Assembly (NCBI RefSeq): GCF_004365355.1
Contig: NZ_SODP01000004.1
Span: 590,266 to 654,265 of the forward strand
Length of the DNA: 64,000 bases
Reading direction: 5' to 3'
From: Kribbella pratensis
GTDB taxonomy: Bacteria > Actinomycetota > Actinomycetes > Propionibacteriales > Kribbellaceae
Shown here piece after piece: positions 5,632 to 19,067 of this stretch (position 1 is its first letter; every line of letters begins with the position of its first letter). The translations under genes were made by a program, and so were the position numbers. Under the pieces are notes generated by a model. That model searched no databases, was not told the DNA's origin, and was given only the letters and a program-made list of their open reading frames with translations.

Positions 5632-5731
5632 ATCAACTCCCGTCGATGGCGGTCGAAGCGTCCATCTTCATCCACAACCCCGCCACGCCGCGACCCGGGC
5701 GGGGCAAGCCTTCCGGTCCTACCGTGAACTC

Positions 5732-5846
5732 TTGACACCGGGTTTCGCCGGATCGATGATCGGTGTCGCTATACCGGTTTATCTCCTGCCGCCGCCTCGG
5801 CTCTCGCCCGAGCGGCGACCGGTACTTAACCGATATAGCGACACCG
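5732..5846 (+). promoter_or_regulatory. Promoter and 21-bp inverted repeat upstream of the Endo H gene
   Basis: TTGACA (5732-5737) and GATGAT (5755-5760) are separated by 17 bp, a plausible housekeeping promoter. Directly after it begins a long inverted repeat: arm 5761-5781 pairs with arm 5826-5846 with 19 of 21 matches, enclosing 44 nt that contain a smaller CTCGG...CCGAG hairpin. The first arm lies over the expected transcription start. This could be a repressor site pair allowing looping, or a structured leader. Confidence 0.5.
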
Positions 5847-5872
5847 CCCACCTTTGACGAGGAGTCGATCGG

Positions 5873-6787
5873 ATGAGTTCATCGCTCATGAAACGAAGGA
5901 CCCTGTTGTCAGCCCTGGCCGCCGGTACCGCCGCGGCCGCCACCGGTGCCGCGCTGCCCGCCGAGGCCGCGACCAAGCGCCGCCGCGCGCAGAAGACCGG
6001 TCCGGTCACCGTCGCGTACATCGAGGTCAACAACTACAGCATGCTCAGCGCCGGCAAGTACACGCTCGCGAACGGCGGCGCGCAGGTGATCGACGTCGCG
6101 GTGATCTTCGCGGCGAACATCAACTATGACGGCTCGAACGCGTACCTGTTCTTCAACGACCAGGTGACCAACGTCCTGAACAACGTCGCCACCCAGGTCC
6201 GCCCGCTGCAGCAGAAGGGCATCAAGGTCCTGCTGTCGGTCCTGGGCAACCACCAGGGCGCCGGCTTCGCGAACTTCCCGAACCAGGCGGCCGCCGACGC
6301 GTTCGCGCAGCAGCTCGCCGACGCGGTCAACCAGTACGGCCTGGACGGCATCGACTTCGACGACGAGTACGCGGAGTACGGCAACAACGGCACCGGTCAG
6401 CCCAACGACTTCTCGTTCGTCTACCTGGTCCAGGCCCTCCGCGCCAAGCTCCCGAACAAGCTGATCACGCTGTACGACATCGGCCCCGCGGCGGACCGCC
6501 TCACCTACAACGGCCAGAGCATCGCGGAGACCTTCAACTACGCCTGGAATCCGTACTACGGCACCTGGGGCGTCCCGAGCGGACCGAGCGAGAAGTCCCG
6601 CCTCTCGCCGGCCGCCGTCTCCTACACCGACACCAGCTCGTCGACCGCCGCGAGCCTCGCCCAGCGAACGGTCAGCGAGGGGTACGGCGTCTTCCTGACG
6701 TACAACCTGACCGAGTCCGACACGTCGTCGTACATGTCGGCCTTCACCAAGAAGCTGTACGGCAGCGCGACCGTCTACACGCTTTAG
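5873..6787 (+). CDS. Secreted endo-beta-N-acetylglucosaminidase, GH18, Endo H type
   Basis: This 304-aa protein has a twin-arginine signal (MKRRTLLSALAAG, cleavage after about AEA at residues 30-32). The GH18 catalytic motif is LDGIDFDDEYAEYGNNGTG, with D163 and E165 matching the catalytic pair of Streptomyces Endo H. NYAWNPYYGTWGVP and EGYGVFLTYNL also match that enzyme. Endo H cleaves the chitobiose core of high-mannose N-glycans (EC 3.2.1.96) outside the cell. The start has a GAGGAG site 8-9 nt upstream. The stop overlaps the convergent phosphatase gene by 4 nt. Confidence 0.93.
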   Translation: MSSSLMKRRTLLSALAAGTAAAATGAALPAEAATKRRRAQKTGPVTVAYIEVNNYSMLSAGKYTLANGGAQVIDVAVIFAANINYDGSNAYLFFNDQVTNVLNNVATQVRPLQQKGIKVLLSVLGNHQGAGFANFPNQAAADAFAQQLADAVNQYGLDGIDFDDEYAEYGNNGTGQPNDFSFVYLVQALRAKLPNKLITLYDIGPAADRLTYNGQSIAETFNYAWNPYYGTWGVPSGPSEKSRLSPAAVSYTDTSSSTAASLAQRTVSEGYGVFLTYNLTESDTSSYMSAFTKKLYGSATVYTL

Positions 6788-7299
6788 ACCCGGTACTCCC
6801 AGCCCGGCTGCCAGTTGAACGGGGAGACGATCAGCTCCTCCATCGAAGCGCGACCGCCGAGGAGGTGCTCGAGGGCCCACCGGTTCGCCGAGTGCGCGAC
6901 CACGAGCACCACCCGGCCGTCGTACCAGCGCTTGGCGTCCTCGAGGAAGGAACGGGTCAGCTCGACGACGTCGGTGTAGCTCTGACCGCCGGGGAACGGA
7001 CTGTGGACGCGCTTGACCCTCGGGTCGAGCGCGTCCACGGGTGCGCCGTTCAGCTGGCCGTAGTTGCACTCGCGCAACCGCCAGTCCTGCAGATGCGGCA
7101 CGGTCAGGCCGGACAGCTCGACGGTCTGTACTGCACGACGCAGGTCGGAGCTGAACACCACGTCGACATCTTGTCGGCGCGGCCCGAGCTCAGCCGCGAG
7201 CCGCCGCCCCTCGTCGGACAGCTCACCGGGCAGCCAACCGGTCGCGATCCCGCGTTCGTTGTCGACAGTGATCGAGTGGGTCTCGTAAATCAGCTTCAT
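6784..7299 (-). CDS. Histidine phosphatase family protein with altered RHG motif
   Basis: This 171-aa protein follows the phosphoglycerate-mutase-like fold: GELSDEGRRLAAELG, SSDLRRAVQT, and the second catalytic His in VLVVAHSANRWAL (about residue 139). The usual N-terminal RHG is replaced by THS (IYETHSITVDNE), so the nucleophile His8 is kept but the phosphate-binding Arg before it is Thr. Whether it remains a phosphatase is uncertain. It is divergent from the acyl-CoA dehydrogenase gene; their starts are 96 bp apart. Confidence 0.83.
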   Translation of the reverse strand: MKLIYETHSITVDNERGIATGWLPGELSDEGRRLAAELGPRRQDVDVVFSSDLRRAVQTVELSGLTVPHLQDWRLRECNYGQLNGAPVDALDPRVKRVHSPFPGGQSYTDVVELTRSFLEDAKRWYDGRVVLVVAHSANRWALEHLLGGRASMEELIVSPFNWQPGWEYRV

Positions 7300-9472: not shown

Positions 9473-10726
9473 GTGAGTGTGTCCAGATCCGGTCGTCGTA
9501 GGCTGTCCGCGATGTCCGCCCGACTCTTCTGCGCCGTGGTTGCGGCCCTGGCGTTCCTGCCGGTGCTCCCCGCGCAGGCCGATACCCCCGAGCTGCCCGA
9601 CCGCATCGCCGCGGCCTGGCGGACCGACCACCTGTCCGTGGACGAGCGACTGCGAGCGACGATGCCGGCGTCCGAGCTGGCCCGGATCCGTACTGCGATG
9701 CGGACCGCCGGTCTGCCGGTGTACGTCGCGCTCGTGCCGCAGTCGCCGTACCTCCGGGCGAGCGGCTACGACCTGCCGACGTTGCTGCACGCGCGCATCG
9801 GCGAGCCCGGCGTCTACATCGTCGCGGTTGTCTACGACACCTACTGGTCGGACCGCGCCGAGCTGTTCCGGCCGGCCGGGCTGCGTGGCCGGGACCTCTC
9901 CAGCGTTCGGGCCGACGACAAGCAGGACTCCGATCTCGTCGACGAGCGTCCGGCCCCACAGATCGTCCGGACGATCCAGCAGGCCTCCACGGCGTACGAC
10001 GGTCGTCCGCTGCCGCAGGTCCCGGCCGCTGATCTGGATCCGCGGCGCAGCGACGGCGGGCTCTCGGTGACCGACAAGGAGGATCGGTCCGCGTACGTCG
10101 GCCTCGGGGCCGGCGCGGTGATCGGGTTCGCGCTGGTCCTGTTCCTCGGGCTACGTCGCCGTCGGCCGGCCAAGCGGACGAAACGGCAACGCGCCGACGA
10201 GCCGCCGATCGACGCGTGGGACGTGGAGCTCAAGGCCGACGACAAGATCAAACAGGCCGAGCGCGCACTCGCGCGGCTCGACGAGCGCAACAACAAGTCG
10301 ACGAAGCAGCTCGACCAGCGCGATGACGCGTACCGCCGGCTGGATGCGGCGCGCAGACTGCGCGCGGATCAGCCGGAGGACCTGCTCGCGGCCGCCGGTG
10401 CGCTCGTCCTCGCGCGGCAGGCCGAGCGCGTGGCCTCGGGAGCTGCCGTGCAACCGCCGTGCTTCTTCAATCCGACGCACAATCCCGGAACGGCCACGGT
10501 CGACTGGGAGGACGAGGTCGAAGTACCCGCATGCCAGTCGTGTGCGAGCGTCATCCGGCGCGGCCGGACGCCGACCGGGTTGCGGGTGTGGAGCAAGTCC
10601 GGGCTGCTCGGTCACGACCGCAAGCAGGTGCCGTACTGGACGCTCGATCCGGAGGACAACCCGATGGTCGCGACCGGCTTCGGCGCGCTGTCCGACGACC
10701 TGCCCGAACGGATCGCAGTCCGATGA
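9473..10726 (+). CDS. Membrane protein with ectodomain, one TM and cytoplasmic metal-site domain (paralogue 1 of 3)
   Basis: This 417-aa protein has a signal peptide (to about AQA, residue 36), an extracytoplasmic alpha/beta-like region (RTAMRTAGLPVYVALVP, GEPGVYIVAVV), one TM at about 207-227, then a Lys/Arg-rich charged helix and a C-terminal domain. That domain has C330-x5-H336 (CFFNPTH) and C354-x2-C357 (CQSC), a probable zinc site. The ectodomain vaguely recalls TPM-domain proteins. Function unknown. Its stop overlaps the next paralogue's start (ATGA). GTG 9473 has GGGAGGA upstream at a long spacing; ATG 9512 is an alternative start that still keeps the signal peptide. Confidence 0.8.
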   Translation: MSVSRSGRRRLSAMSARLFCAVVAALAFLPVLPAQADTPELPDRIAAAWRTDHLSVDERLRATMPASELARIRTAMRTAGLPVYVALVPQSPYLRASGYDLPTLLHARIGEPGVYIVAVVYDTYWSDRAELFRPAGLRGRDLSSVRADDKQDSDLVDERPAPQIVRTIQQASTAYDGRPLPQVPAADLDPRRSDGGLSVTDKEDRSAYVGLGAGAVIGFALVLFLGLRRRRPAKRTKRQRADEPPIDAWDVELKADDKIKQAERALARLDERNNKSTKQLDQRDDAYRRLDAARRLRADQPEDLLAAAGALVLARQAERVASGAAVQPPCFFNPTHNPGTATVDWEDEVEVPACQSCASVIRRGRTPTGLRVWSKSGLLGHDRKQVPYWTLDPEDNPMVATGFGALSDDLPERIAVR

Positions 10727-11391
10727 GGCGCCTCGTTCTGTTGCTGCTGGCCACTGCCTTCGCCCTGACCGGGACCGCCTGGGCGGCCTTGACCGGGACG
10801 GCCTGGGCGGCCACGCCCGCCGATCCCCGGATCGCCGCGGCCACCGCCGCCTGGACGAAGCAGGGGCTGTACGTCGATCCCGACTTCACCTCGATTGCTG
10901 ATGGCAACGAGATGCTGCGGGTGATCTCGTCGGCGAAGATGCCGGTCTTCGTTGCCGTCGTACCGACCGGCGAATGGTTCCCGGAGAAGGGCGACGCGGA
11001 TCTCCTCGCCGGCCGGCTGGCCGCCGCGAACGGGAAGCCGGGCGTGTACGTCGTGATGGACGGCGACACGACGTACGGCGTGGCGCATCAGCTCGCGGCG
11101 TACGCGCCGGACAGCACCTGGCGGGAGAAGGACGAGACCCTGAGCGCGCAGCTGTCGAAGTACCTCGACAATGTCGAGCTGAACGCTCGCTACTCGCCCG
11201 AGCCGGCCCGGACCGAACCGGTGCCGACGGCGCCGGAGCGTTCGTACCCGGAGGAGAAGTTCACTGTCGGCAAGGCGATCGGGAACGGTCTCGGCGGTGG
11301 TGTGCTCGGGATGATCGGCGGCGGGATCCTCGCCGGAATCGTGTTGATCGTGGCGGCGATCGCCGCCCGGCGTCGGAAGGGAAGCGCGTGA
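10723..11391 (+). CDS. Short membrane-anchored paralogue without the metal-site domain (paralogue 2 of 3)
   Basis: This 222-aa protein has a signal peptide, the same extracytoplasmic region (PVFVAVVPTGEWF, GKPGVYVVMDGDTTYG), and a C-terminal TM (GGGVLGMIGGGILAGIVLIVAAIAA) ending in a short basic tail RRRKGSA. It lacks the cytoplasmic helix and C/H-C-C domain of its two neighbours. The signal peptide carries a 24-bp tandem duplication (10765-10788 and 10789-10812) giving ALTGTAWA twice. ATG 10723 overlaps the previous stop, and its own stop overlaps the next GTG, so the three are one coupled operon. Confidence 0.8.
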   Translation: MRRLVLLLLATAFALTGTAWAALTGTAWAATPADPRIAAATAAWTKQGLYVDPDFTSIADGNEMLRVISSAKMPVFVAVVPTGEWFPEKGDADLLAGRLAAANGKPGVYVVMDGDTTYGVAHQLAAYAPDSTWREKDETLSAQLSKYLDNVELNARYSPEPARTEPVPTAPERSYPEEKFTVGKAIGNGLGGGVLGMIGGGILAGIVLIVAAIAARRRKGSA

Positions 11392-12605
11392 AGGGCCTCT
11401 TGAGCTGCTTGGCGGCTTTGGTGTTGTTGGTCGCGGTCCCGGCTGAGGCCGACGCGGATGCGGCGCGGACGCCGGCGGAACGGGCTCGGGAGATCGCGAC
11501 CGCGTTGACCAAGGATCCGCTGTACATCGATCCGGCGTACGCGTCGGCGCTGCCGGAGAAGCTGCGGGCCGACGTACGGACGAAGGCCAAGGCGGTCGGG
11601 TACCCGATCTACACGATCATCCTGCCGCTGACGCCGAGCGACGAGTTCCAGGGCGAGGAGAGCACCGTGCTCACCCTGGTGATGGACGCTTTGCGCAAGC
11701 CGGGGTTGTACGTCGTGGTCGACGGCGGCGACCGCTTCCCGTGGTACGAGGCGCGCGACGTACCGCAGGTCAGCGAGGACAAACTGCAGGCGGCGCGCGA
11801 ACGTGCGCTGGACGACGAAGGGTACGACGCCGGGCCGACCGAGGTCCTGGCCCGGATGTACGAGCTGCTCGCGGCGCCGGGGATCCCTTCGACCACGCCC
11901 CGTGCGACCACGCCGGGCAGCCCCTCCGACGCTTCCGACTCGGACTCGGGTGGGCATGGCTGGGTCGTTGCGCTGTCGATCGTCGGCGGGCTCGTCGTAC
12001 TGATTCTGCTCGGTTTGGTGATCGGGCTGCGGCGACGCGCGCCTCAGCGGGAGAAGGCCTTCCGCATCCCGCCGCACGTGGCCGCGACGGTCGCGGCCGA
12101 GCGGCGCCGGCGACTGGAACGGGACACGACGGCTGAGCTGACCACGCTCGGCACGAAGCTCGCCGCCCTGCCCACGACCGACGGGCCAGGTCTGGTGCAT
12201 CAGCAGGCGGCGCTCGACGATCACGCGGCGGCCGGGAAGGTTCTGGACTCGTCCACGTCGTTGGTGGACCTGGTCGGCGCGATGGTGCTCCTCGACAAGG
12301 CTCGCCGGGAGTACGACGTCGCGGTGACGGGCCGGCCGGACGCCGTACCGGATCTGTGTGCCTTCAACCCGCTGCACGGTCGGTCGGCCGGCAAGCCCAC
12401 CCAGGTAGAAGCCGACGGCACCACGCTCACGCTCCCCCTCTGCGCCGACTGTCGCCGAGCCCTCAAACGCGGCACTGCACCGGCGTCGCTCCCCGGCGAC
12501 GCCGGCCCCTACTGGTACGACGACACCCTCTGGGCCCGCACCTTCTACGGCACCACCGGCGAGGACCTGGCCGAGTCCGTCTCGCGAGGCGAGCTACACC
12601 GCTAA
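11388..12605 (+). CDS. Membrane protein with ectodomain, one TM and cytoplasmic metal-site domain (paralogue 3 of 3)
   Basis: This 405-aa protein starts at GTG 11388. It has a signal peptide (LSCLAALVLLVAVPAEADA), the shared ectodomain (AVGYPIYTIILP, KPGLYVVVDGGDRF), a Ser/Thr/Pro-rich linker (165-190), a TM at about 191-213 and a cytoplasmic helix. The C-terminal domain keeps C324-x5-H330 (CAFNPLH) and C352-x2-C355 (CADC), then RGTAPASL and GPYWYDD, which align with RGRTPTGL and VPYWTLD of paralogue 1. The conservation of four putative ligands in two diverged copies supports a real metal-binding domain. Role unknown; envelope sensing or proteolytic-complex scaffolding are guesses. Confidence 0.8.
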   Translation: MKGLLSCLAALVLLVAVPAEADADAARTPAERAREIATALTKDPLYIDPAYASALPEKLRADVRTKAKAVGYPIYTIILPLTPSDEFQGEESTVLTLVMDALRKPGLYVVVDGGDRFPWYEARDVPQVSEDKLQAARERALDDEGYDAGPTEVLARMYELLAAPGIPSTTPRATTPGSPSDASDSDSGGHGWVVALSIVGGLVVLILLGLVIGLRRRAPQREKAFRIPPHVAATVAAERRRRLERDTTAELTTLGTKLAALPTTDGPGLVHQQAALDDHAAAGKVLDSSTSLVDLVGAMVLLDKARREYDVAVTGRPDAVPDLCAFNPLHGRSAGKPTQVEADGTTLTLPLCADCRRALKRGTAPASLPGDAGPYWYDDTLWARTFYGTTGEDLAESVSRGELHR

Positions 12606-12617
12606 CCCCCCGGTGGT

Positions 12618-13388
12618 TTACCGTGCGTGGAGCTCGATGTCGCCCGAGGTCGTCGTGGCGGTGAGGCTGTGGGAGGCGTCGGCGGAGTTGCCGAGTGAGT
12701 TCTCGACGTCACCGGTGCGGGACTCCGTGGAGACCTTGTAGTCGCCGCCAGGCGCGGTGATCTCGATGTCGCCGCTCGTCCCCTTCACGCGGACATCGTT
12801 GGCCTCGGCGAGTTGGAGTTCGATGTCGCCGGACGAGGTCTCGACGTCGACCGGGCCGCCCTTCAGGCCGGCGGCCTCGATGTCGCCCGAGTTCGCCTTC
12901 ACATCCAGCTTGCCGGTGAGGTCGCTGACGGACACATCGCCGGATGTCAGGTCCAGGTTCAGATCGCCGTTGATCTCGCGGAGTGTGACCTCGCCGGAGC
13001 GGGACTTCACGTCGACGCCGGCAACGCCGCTCAGCTCGAGGTCGCCGCTGCCGTTCTCACCGGTGATCTTTGTTCCCCGCGGGACGGTGACTTCGAAGTC
13101 GGCGCTGCATTGCCAGCCGCAATCGCCGTCGAGTTTGAGGACGCCGTCCTTCACGGAGTACGCGTCGCCGTGCTTGAAGAACCAGTACTTGCGCTGCTCC
13201 TGGACGGTGGTGGTGTCGTCGTCGGACACGTTGATCGTGATGTCGGAGTGTCCGGCGGCGAGCTGCACCGTGGTGATCTTGTCGTCGACCTTGTGCGTGT
13301 CGTCGGAGTCCTTGTCCCCGAACTGCCAGAACGCCAGCCCGGCCGCCACCACCAGCAGGATCACGCCGAGCTGCTTGTTCTCCGCCAT
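12618..13388 (-). CDS. DUF4097-type beta-strand-repeat protein, membrane anchored
   Basis: This 256-aa protein starts at ATG 13388, preceded by AAGAGGCGG. An N-terminal TM (LGVILLVVAAGLAFWQF) is followed by an exported region built of short repeats of the type SGDI/SGDV (SGEVTLREINGDL, SGDVSVSDLTGKL, SGDIEAAGL, SGDIELQL, SGDIEITAP), expected to form a right-handed beta-solenoid (DUF4097/putative adhesin). Such proteins are often linked to envelope stress systems. Two cysteines (GDCGWQCSAD) may form a disulfide. It converges on the three-paralogue operon with a 12-bp gap. Confidence 0.82.
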   Translation of the reverse strand: MAENKQLGVILLVVAAGLAFWQFGDKDSDDTHKVDDKITTVQLAAGHSDITINVSDDDTTTVQEQRKYWFFKHGDAYSVKDGVLKLDGDCGWQCSADFEVTVPRGTKITGENGSGDLELSGVAGVDVKSRSGEVTLREINGDLNLDLTSGDVSVSDLTGKLDVKANSGDIEAAGLKGGPVDVETSSGDIELQLAEANDVRVKGTSGDIEITAPGGDYKVSTESRTGDVENSLGNSADASHSLTATTTSGDIELHAR

Positions 13389-13514: not shown

Positions 13515-13763
13515 CTACTCCGTGATGTCGCGGTGGTGTTCCTCGACGACGCGGTACTCCTCTTCGACGGCCGGGTCGATGGCGTCGGTCGTCACGCGGC
13601 GGCGGCGGTTGGTGATGTAGAAGGAGAGCAGGATGCCGGCCAGACCGGCCAGCAGCAGGATGTAGCCGACCACTTGCAGGTTGACGGCGTCCCAGGTGTC
13701 GCGGACAGCGAACGCGAGCACGGCGCCGACCACCATCAGAAAGATCCCCACACCGATGCTCAT
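13515..13763 (-). CDS. Small two-TM membrane protein, DUF6458 type
   Basis: This 82-aa protein has two TM segments (IGVGIFLMVVGAVLAFAV and VVGYILLLAGLAGILLSFYI), a basic loop NRRRRV and an acidic, His-containing tail (EEEYRVVEEHHRDITE). The pattern fits the small actinobacterial DUF6458 family. Function unknown. It lies 127 bp upstream of the DUF4097 gene on the same strand and may be cotranscribed. Confidence 0.8.
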   Translation of the reverse strand: MSIGVGIFLMVVGAVLAFAVRDTWDAVNLQVVGYILLLAGLAGILLSFYITNRRRRVTTDAIDPAVEEEYRVVEEHHRDITE

Positions 13764-18167: not shown

Positions 18168-19067
18168 TCAGCCCTTGAGGGCGCCGGCCATCAGGCCGCC
18201 GATGAACCAGCGGCCGAGGAGGATGTAGACGATCAGCGTCGGGAACGACGTGATCAGCGCGCCGGCCATGCTCGCGGCGTAGTCGACCTTCTGGCCGCCG
18301 GCCAGCGCGGCCAGGCCCAGGGTCACCGGGCCGTTGTTCTGCTGGGTCAGGAACAGTGCGAACAGGAAGTCGTTCCAGACCGAGGTGAACTGCCAGATCA
18401 GCGTCACCACGAAGCCGGAGATGGAAATCGGAAGGATGATCCGCAGGTACGTCTGGACCAGCCCGGCGCCGTCCACCCGGGCCGACTCGATGATCTCGTT
18501 CGGCACGATCGTGGCGTAGTAGTTCCGGAAGATCAGCGTGCAGATCGGGATGCCGTAGATGCAGTGCGCGATGATCAGCGTCGGCACACCCCGGGTCACG
18601 TCCAGCGCGGTGAACGTCGTACGCAGCGGCAGCATCACCGCCTGGTACGGAATGAACATCCCGAACAGGATGAACGCGAACACGAGGTTCGCGCCCGGGA
18701 ACCGCCAGCGGGCCAGCACGAACCCGTTCGCCGAACCGATCAGCGACGAGATGATCGCGGCCGGGATCGCCAGCGACAGCGACCGGATCATGTACGGCTG
18801 GAGAACGTCCCAGGCCTTGCGCCAGGGCTCCAGCGTCCAGGTCTTCGGCAGGTTCCACTGCGAGGCCGCGGTGGTGTCACCGGAGGTCTTGAAGCTGGTG
18901 ATCAGTACGACGTACACCGGGATCAGCACGAACACCAGGAACAACAGCAGCAGGACGTAGCGGGTGGTCCGGCTGCGCCGGGTCGTGCCGTCGGCGATTC
19001 CGGCGCGGCGCGGCTTCTGGCGGATCGCTGCGGCAGTATGGCCGGTCGCAGCCTCTACGGCGGTCAT
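18168..19067 (-). CDS. Carbohydrate ABC transporter permease, MalG/CUT1 type
   Basis: This 299-aa inner-membrane protein has six TM segments. The EAA loop that docks the ATPase reads EIIESARVDGAGLVQTYLRIILPIS. It is the second permease of a CUT1 importer; its start overlaps the upstream permease stop by 4 nt. No ATPase gene is present, as is usual for actinobacterial CUT1 systems that share MsiK. The sugar cannot be read from the permease. Confidence 0.93.
   Translation of the reverse strand: MTAVEAATGHTAAAIRQKPRRAGIADGTTRRSRTTRYVLLLLFLVFVLIPVYVVLITSFKTSGDTTAASQWNLPKTWTLEPWRKAWDVLQPYMIRSLSLAIPAAIISSLIGSANGFVLARWRFPGANLVFAFILFGMFIPYQAVMLPLRTTFTALDVTRGVPTLIIAHCIYGIPICTLIFRNYYATIVPNEIIESARVDGAGLVQTYLRIILPISISGFVVTLIWQFTSVWNDFLFALFLTQQNNGPVTLGLAALAGGQKVDYAASMAGALITSFPTLIVYILLGRWFIGGLMAGALKG

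Follow-up and report, generated by a model that had tools for sequence, protein, structure and literature searches.

A three-gene membrane-protein set with two putative metal fingers in Kribbella pratensis: a candidate envelope-stress platform

Results

Layout of the three genes

A 64,000-nucleotide stretch of Kribbella pratensis DNA (RefSeq assembly GCF_004365355.1, contig NZ_SODP01000004.1, positions 590,266 to 654,265 of the forward strand) was analysed and is called the window below. Three overlapping genes at window positions 9473-12605 encode predicted membrane proteins, of which the first and the third carry a cytoplasmic cysteine-histidine motif, here termed the finger. Genomes, loci and families are cited by the labels G, L and f. 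The features are as follows.

9473..10726, + strand: gene 1, with signal peptide, ectodomain, transmembrane (TM) segment at residues ~209-228 and cytoplasmic region with finger
10460..10543, + strand: finger ligands of gene 1, C330-x5-H336 and C354-x2-C357
10723..11391, + strand: gene 2, with signal peptide, ectodomain, TM segment at residues ~197-216 and short basic tail, without finger
11388..12605, + strand: gene 3, with signal peptide, modelled TPM-fold ectodomain, TM segment at residues ~194-215, cytoplasmic bundle and finger
11472..11891, + strand: modelled TPM-fold ectodomain of gene 3 (model residues 29-168)
12063..12338, + strand: cytoplasmic helical bundle of gene 3 (residues ~226-317)
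12357..12452, + strand: finger ligands of gene 3, C324-x5-H330 and C352-x2-C355

An earlier note on this DNA had described three coupled genes with ATGA and GTGA junctions, and this was confirmed: genes 1 and 2 (9473-10726 and 10723-11391) overlap by ATGA, and genes 2 and 3 (11388-12605) by GTGA. The start codon of gene 1 is GTG; an alternative ATG at 9512 is possible. With the starts picked by the gene caller, the overlap between genes 2 and 3 is 4 bases in 29 of 30 Kribbella-like loci (the window's own, L001, included) and 1 base in the remaining one. In all three proteins, one hydrophobic stretch lies at the N-terminus and a single further one, with Arg/Lys behind it, comes later in the chain. 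Together with BLASTP and profile homology, these stretches bear out the signal peptide, similar ectodomain and single TM segment that the note had assigned to each protein. Its motifs were also found again: C-x5-H/C-x2-C, FNPxH (FNPTH in gene 1, FNPLH in gene 3) and RG(R/T)xP (RGRTP and RGTAP, respectively) occur in genes 1 and 3, and gene 2 comprises the ectodomain and TM segment alone. The gene 2 protein stops about seven residues past the TM segment and has neither helical bundle nor finger.

The signal-peptide region of gene 2 contains a 24-base tandem duplication at 10765-10812 (LTGTAWAALTGTAWAA), the copies being 22/24 alike by eye. The alignment has 14 other Kribbella-like gene 2 sequences, and none of them shows the repeat copy.

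Co-inheritance in Kribbella

Judged from match coordinates, the three genes are contiguous in 36 of 38 Kribbella-like genomes, so that the conserved co-occurrence raised by the earlier note was observed. The other two genomes (G009 and G020) lack all three and give weak matches to other finger proteins only. Gene 2 was detected in 36 of the 38, gene 1 strongly in the same 36, and gene 3 almost complete in 35 of the 37 searched for it; in the 38th (G470), a gene 3-like match lies right behind gene 2. Gene 2 lies between genes 1 and 3 in 29 of 30 loci read closely, the window's own included. At the 30th (L025 of genome G026), gene 1 was overlooked by the gene caller; the gene 1 match there (G026:C22:59171-60417) shifts frame near residue 366-376, and a sequencing error is possible. 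Gene 1 matches are split in two pieces in G019 and G032. Since all three genes are either present or absent together in the genus, they behave as one unit: the set is inherited as a whole.

The ectodomain

The ectodomains of the three proteins are homologous to each other, with weak but significant BLASTP E-values for the three pairs (3e-7, 3e-8 and 6e-7). Comparison of profiles from gene 2 relatives and from gene 1/3-type ectodomains gave a probability of 99.3 and an E-value of 8.5e-21 over 90 columns.

An AlphaFold model of gene 3 was built on an alignment of 74 homologues, a reduced set from which rows more than 82% alike had been dropped and 3 weak or divergent sequences of 77 left out. 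The model had a mean predicted local distance difference test (pLDDT) score of 86 and a predicted template modelling score of 0.53. In blocks of ten residues, pLDDT was 84-98 across residues 31-160 and 89-98 across residues 231-400. When a structural aligner was run on the candidates supplied by Foldseek, the seven top-ranked chains (Z 10.8-12.9) all aligned to the ectodomain. The best alignment was with 5anp_B (Z 12.9, root-mean-square deviation 2.5, 128 residues), followed by 2kpt (11.9), 7tbr (11.6), 3pvh, 2kw7 and 3ptj (11.0 each) and Psb32 8c7i (10.8). The entry 7tbr is titled as a TPM domain, and we take the other top matches to be TPM proteins as well; solved TPM domains presumably include BA41/BA42, Cg2496, AtTLP18.3 and Psb32. 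Foldseek alone gave nothing at E 0.001 for the gene 3 model, its best match being 2kpt (7.2e-3), then 3ptj, 5anp and 4oa3.

The gene 3 ectodomain differs from TPM domains of PF04536 in sequence: identities in the fold alignments were 8-13%, and the PF04536 profile matched neither the window's three proteins nor any of the 74 homologues at E 0.01. The same profile does find a separate protein of this genome. Since the fold matches and PF04536 is silent, the ectodomain is called TPM-fold and not a PF04536 member. In the model, then, the gene 3 ectodomain is a TPM fold, and those of genes 1 and 2 would be of TPM type by their homology to gene 3.

The cytoplasmic bundle and the finger

Three finger ligands (C324, H330 and C352 in gene 3 numbering) are invariant in all 74 homologues. 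The fourth position is Cys in 50, Asp in 23 and Asn in 1, so that the conservation of all four ligands expected in the earlier note holds for three of them and is not universal for the last. A Cys/Asp swap at one of four positions would seem tolerable for a putative metal site. The variants are linked to the tail: 21 of the 23 proteins with Asp have a Gly/Ser-rich tail, and 43 of the 50 with Cys lack it.

Modelled alone (pLDDT 80.5, end blocks 57-64), the finger forms a hairpin and then a helix that opens with the second ligand pair. Treble clefs comprise a knuckle, a beta-hairpin and a helix beginning with the second ligand pair. The order of elements is as in treble clefs, yet the best structural match had a Z of 3.6 and none reached 5. 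No solved relative is claimed for the finger from the Lsr2 dimerisation domain (Z 3.6), ClpG chain 8p66 (2.4) or ribosomal-subunit chains (2.0-2.1). Many bundles match that of gene 3, such as uranyl-binding 4fzo (Z 9.7) and SCIN 2qff (8.6); we read this as a common arrangement and not as a specific relationship.

Parts of this cytoplasmic region occur in other contexts. A Streptomyces-like TerD protein (L085 6315-7463; PF02342, 2.3e-66) carries a CFFDPQH...CGAC finger in its C-terminal half, which means that the finger appears to be mobile. It shares the finger motif with the Kribbella proteins, and no TPM-type ectodomain was seen in it. A Streptomyces-like membrane protein (L086 6112-7176) shares the helical cytoplasmic part (E 6.2e-10, profile 5-86) without the finger.

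Family libraries and literature

The three window proteins had no convincing family match in Pfam or NCBIfam, and the family-library scans revealed no kinase, DNA-binding or enzyme domain in them. The best Pfam match among 22 homologues was 0.0061. Matches to the NCBIfam entries GVDTG_CTERM (2 of 22 homologues, 7.9e-5) and Rv0361_Cterm (2 of 22, 0.0042) were taken as likeness of tail or TM segment. Among the 74 homologues, one matched Rv1476 (PF20381) in Pfam; 18 gene 2 relatives matched nothing there convincingly. Sequence searches of the PDB gave nothing under E 0.04, and a plasmid collection gave a single weak Streptomyces match (E 9e-3). The finger domain, for which we found no Pfam or NCBIfam family by sequence comparison, is apparently undescribed. 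Neither the finger nor the three-gene set is described in the open-licence PMC literature searched, an absence that is not proof. In the available part of a paper on the sigma-E regulon (PMC6767563), pspA is among the envelope-stress genes of Streptomyces coelicolor; none of three guessed finger-gene locus tags is present in that part.

Wider distribution and the 2 + 1 composition

Finger profile matches were found in 138 of 196 genomes of the order and in 39 of 396 genomes of the phylum, the own genome being in both counts. Family and genus labels other than Kribbella, such as Streptomyces-like and Nocardioidaceae-like, were assigned by inference. Members of the finger family also occur as single proteins and in pairs. 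The own genome has six finger matches: the two of the operon, a pair (L031), a 286-residue single protein (L081) and a 197-residue protein (L082). A picture of mainly scattered single genes, which the earlier note had named as refuting its proposal, is found for the finger family at large and not for the three-gene set.

In the Nocardioidaceae-like family f3, six loci of one genus (g6) were targeted by a gene 3-type match (L041-L043 and L101-L103). All six have two fingered proteins and one short finger-less protein of 213-266 residues. Of the two fingered proteins, one belongs to the gene 3 type at 6/6 loci and the other to the gene 1 type at 5/6, L102 being nearly tied. The Kribbella gene 2 profile scored only -3 to 17 bits against the finger-less protein of f3, too low to establish orthology. 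Two further f3 loci, L105 and L106, hold single finger proteins.

An apparently fused form was seen at the Streptomyces-like locus L087, where a 686-residue protein with two ectodomains and one finger domain lies beside a 482-residue fingered protein; the pair sums to three ectodomains and two fingers. The 686-residue protein was matched in 6 of 61 genomes of the Streptomyces-like genus, along its length in G228, G635, G628 and G598; in G611 and G607 the match is broken into two pieces that seem to share a reading frame. The partner gene was read in L087 only. The 2 + 1 composition apparently recurs in fused form in these 6 of 61 genomes, as judged from sequence.

An unrooted tree of 51 finger domains, seven of them from proteins encoded next to pspA, contains one split with support of 98/99. 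On one side are the three-gene proteins, the L087 pair and a Kribbella-like pair (L048); on the other are singles, other pairs, ordinary Streptomyces-like proteins and the pspA-linked proteins. The gene 1 types are grouped at 90/81, and the gene 3 types are not joined. Some rows are long branches, above all the 686-residue protein of L087.

Other members of the family were noted as well. Two-gene finger pairs occur at L031 (6795-9223), L047, L049, L050 and L104, one member having a Ser/Arg/Gly-rich tail; at L031, L047, L049 and L050 the pair adjoins an MFS-type transporter gene and a small ArsR-like gene (labels by eye). Single TM-finger proteins with C-x2-D lie beside or near a biotin carboxylase gene, likewise by eye, at L044, L045, L046, L107 and L108. 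The single proteins of L044 and L046 have no ectodomain.

Neighbouring genes

Two genes follow gene 3 on the opposite strand.

12618..13388, - strand: Toastrack/DUF4097 gene (PF13349, 3.4e-21), convergent to gene 3
13515..13763, - strand: gene for a small DUF6458 membrane protein, the usual further neighbour

The Toastrack gene adjoins gene 3 in all 30 Kribbella-like loci, identified by Pfam in the window and by BLAST to the window copy elsewhere. It lies downstream on the same strand in 28 of them; the two exceptions, where it is convergent, are the window and L002, the locus closest to it. The DUF6458 gene is probably a bystander. An ABC (ATP-binding cassette)-transporter permease is encoded at 18168-19067.

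When the own genome and the Streptomyces-like family are set aside, 27 genomes of the phylum are finger-positive, and in 13 of these a finger match and PspA (PF04012) are no more than 5 kb apart. By family, the linkage was 4/4 in f36, 3/3 in f48, 3/5 in f12, 2/7 in f24 and 1/2 in f50, and zero in f23 (0/3), f45 (0/2) and f62 (0/1). The gap is below 0.8 kb in 12 of the 13 linked genomes and about 4 kb in G240. We estimate chance adjacency at about 1% or less per genome, given one or two pspA genes in a genome of about 2-6 Mb. In the 14 genomes where adjacency was not seen, many assemblies are fragmented and two have no pspA match. The neighbour was confirmed by Pfam as PspA at L089, L095, L096 and L097, and the next gene at L089 is PspAA; the finger homologue of that locus is encoded at 5696-7060. 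Band_7, which served as a control for this linkage, was within 5 kb of the finger match in 0 of the 13 linked genomes.

Discussion

Comparison with known systems

The closest parallel seems to be the PspA-YdjGHI system of Bacillus subtilis. In the portions consulted of Ravi et al. 2024 (PMC11237479), the ydj operon's conserved partner of PspA is the TPM protein YdjH, Toastrack is a recurrent component of the phage shock protein (PSP) response, and a role in complex assembly is proposed for TPM domains. Excerpts of PMC8581546 report that the membrane proteins YdjG and YdjH are required for PspA foci in B. subtilis, and that YdjH interacts with both YdjG and PspA in two-hybrid assays. The Kribbella set resembles this system in its TPM-type domain (by fold only) and its membrane anchors. 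A Toastrack gene is adjacent, as in PSP-associated Toastrack operons. YvlB is presumably a Toastrack protein too. It is described in a portion of PMC9239133 as a link between PspA homologues and membrane proteins. A zinc-ribbon-like element is part of both sets, YdjG carrying two according to the same portions of PMC11237479, and pspA stands beside distant finger homologues in the 13 of 27 genomes mentioned above. One class of finger homologues has a Gly-rich tail ending in Phe; the ydjH/ydjG primers given in PMC8581546, read by eye, likewise end in Gly-rich, Phe-terminal tails.

There are differences as well. In Kribbella, the bundle and the finger lie behind the TM segment of the TPM protein itself, there are three TPM subunits, no Band_7 gene is near, pspA is unlinked, and the window's three proteins lack the Gly-rich tail. 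The Kribbella set fits a YdjGH-like variant with finger and TPM domain in one chain. A further likeness concerns the Rv1476 family: the ectodomain of a pspA-adjacent finger protein (L096 5643-6950) matches PF20381 at 8.2e-9, a hint that Rv1476 may also be of this ectodomain type. This family was matched by 1 of the 74 family members and by none of the 18 gene 2 relatives.

A candidate envelope-stress platform

We suggest, with a probability of about 0.48, that the products of the three genes form a hetero-oligomeric platform for envelope stress whose fingers dock a partner of PspA or Toastrack type, akin to YdjG/YdjH of B. subtilis. Three single-pass subunits would present TPM-fold domains outside the membrane, where these might monitor or assemble something at its outer face. 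Inside, two of the subunits would present a helical bundle capped by the treble-clef-like putative metal finger. The fingers might then dock a cytosolic phage-shock effector, PspA/ESCRT-III-like and possibly together with the Toastrack protein encoded next door, the anchoring of PspA by YdjG/YdjH being the model for this step. Gene 2 would contribute a third TPM domain without a dock. The TPM fold, the Toastrack neighbour and pspA beside distant homologues speak for a scaffold in envelope stress more than for a signalling receptor of the classical kind. The hetero-oligomer with signalling subunits of the earlier note survives in its first half, with which co-inheritance and the recurring 2 + 1 composition are consistent; for the signalling half, the setting favours a scaffold.

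Several observations weigh against this proposal. Unlike in YdjGHI, no finger match had Band_7 within 5 kb in any of 14 genomes (the 13 pspA-linked ones and the own genome). The Kribbella pspA is on another contig (G000:C1:775062), and among the finger matches listed, none had pspA within 5 kb in the 11 Streptomyces-like genomes or in the 11 tested genomes of the same order, the own one among them. The 98/99 split parts the three-gene proteins from all seven pspA-linked proteins in the tree, from which it follows that the partner may have changed. Adjacency to Toastrack was seen only inside the genus and may be inherited synteny. The three-gene loci of f3 show other neighbours: bPH_2 genes at L041 (8350-8826) and L103 (7281-9277), both by Pfam, and at L101 (3557-5535) by eye, and biotin carboxylases near the sets of L041, L043, L101 and L103 (labels by eye). 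The recurrence of the 2 + 1 composition in another family rests on one genus. Because pspA lies elsewhere in Kribbella, we infer the partner there, PspA or Toastrack, as we do complex formation, metal binding, docking and the stress role; the step from the pspA-linked homologues to the Kribbella operon is of the same kind, the two being on opposite sides of the main tree split and pspA being unlinked.

Other explanations share parts of this evidence. The set might instead help to assemble or stabilise a particular membrane protein complex, be it respiratory or of another kind; the TPM domains would then hold the extracytoplasmic side and the fingers a cytoplasmic subunit, with no stress system involved. 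The fold matches include two chains from the respiratory supercomplex of mycobacteria (6adq_J, Z 9.3; 6hwh_O, 8.9) and Psb32, a factor in photosystem II assembly (8c7i, Z 10.8). These are in line with such a function, as is the assembly role proposed for TPM domains by Ravi et al. 2024 (PMC11237479). No respiratory gene is among the window neighbours scanned, however, and the adjacency of pspA and of Toastrack would be left unexplained; we consider this explanation unlikely, if worth keeping in mind. The topology and the conserved 2 + 1 composition would also suit the reading of the earlier note, a receptor that signals across the membrane through two subunits while a third, without the metal domain, tunes them. 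This reading seems improbable, since the three proteins have no output domain, no regulator was found among the 11 window neighbours scanned, and the finger family includes the single proteins without ectodomain of L044 and L046. The TPM fold might also suggest a TPM-type phosphatase complex. The phosphatase claim for TPM concerns, as we assume, AtTLP18.3. That published claim is cited in PMC12419801, which, in the section available, calls phosphatase activity unlikely; PF04536 has no match in the present proteins, and such a complex is very improbable here.

Implications

Membrane attachment of remodelling proteins of the PspA/Vipp1 type at sites of damage is known for few phyla. The envelope-stress platform, if real, would name a candidate receptor for many actinobacteria, as the distribution of the finger across the order and the phylum indicates, and the cytoplasmic domains of genes 1 and 3 would be predicted to bind PspA or Toastrack. 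More broadly, with odds that we place somewhat against it, these proteins may represent undescribed actinobacterial receptors for ESCRT-III-like/PSP machinery. Each would be an obligate A-B-C hetero-oligomer whose subunits display three TPM ectodomains and, in the cytoplasm, two docks. A dock would combine a helical bundle with a new C-x5-H/C-x2-[CD] finger, and this finger would also have spread to TerD proteins. That the 2 + 1 composition is kept so strictly also makes the set a case for asking why a complex retains a paralogue without a dock.

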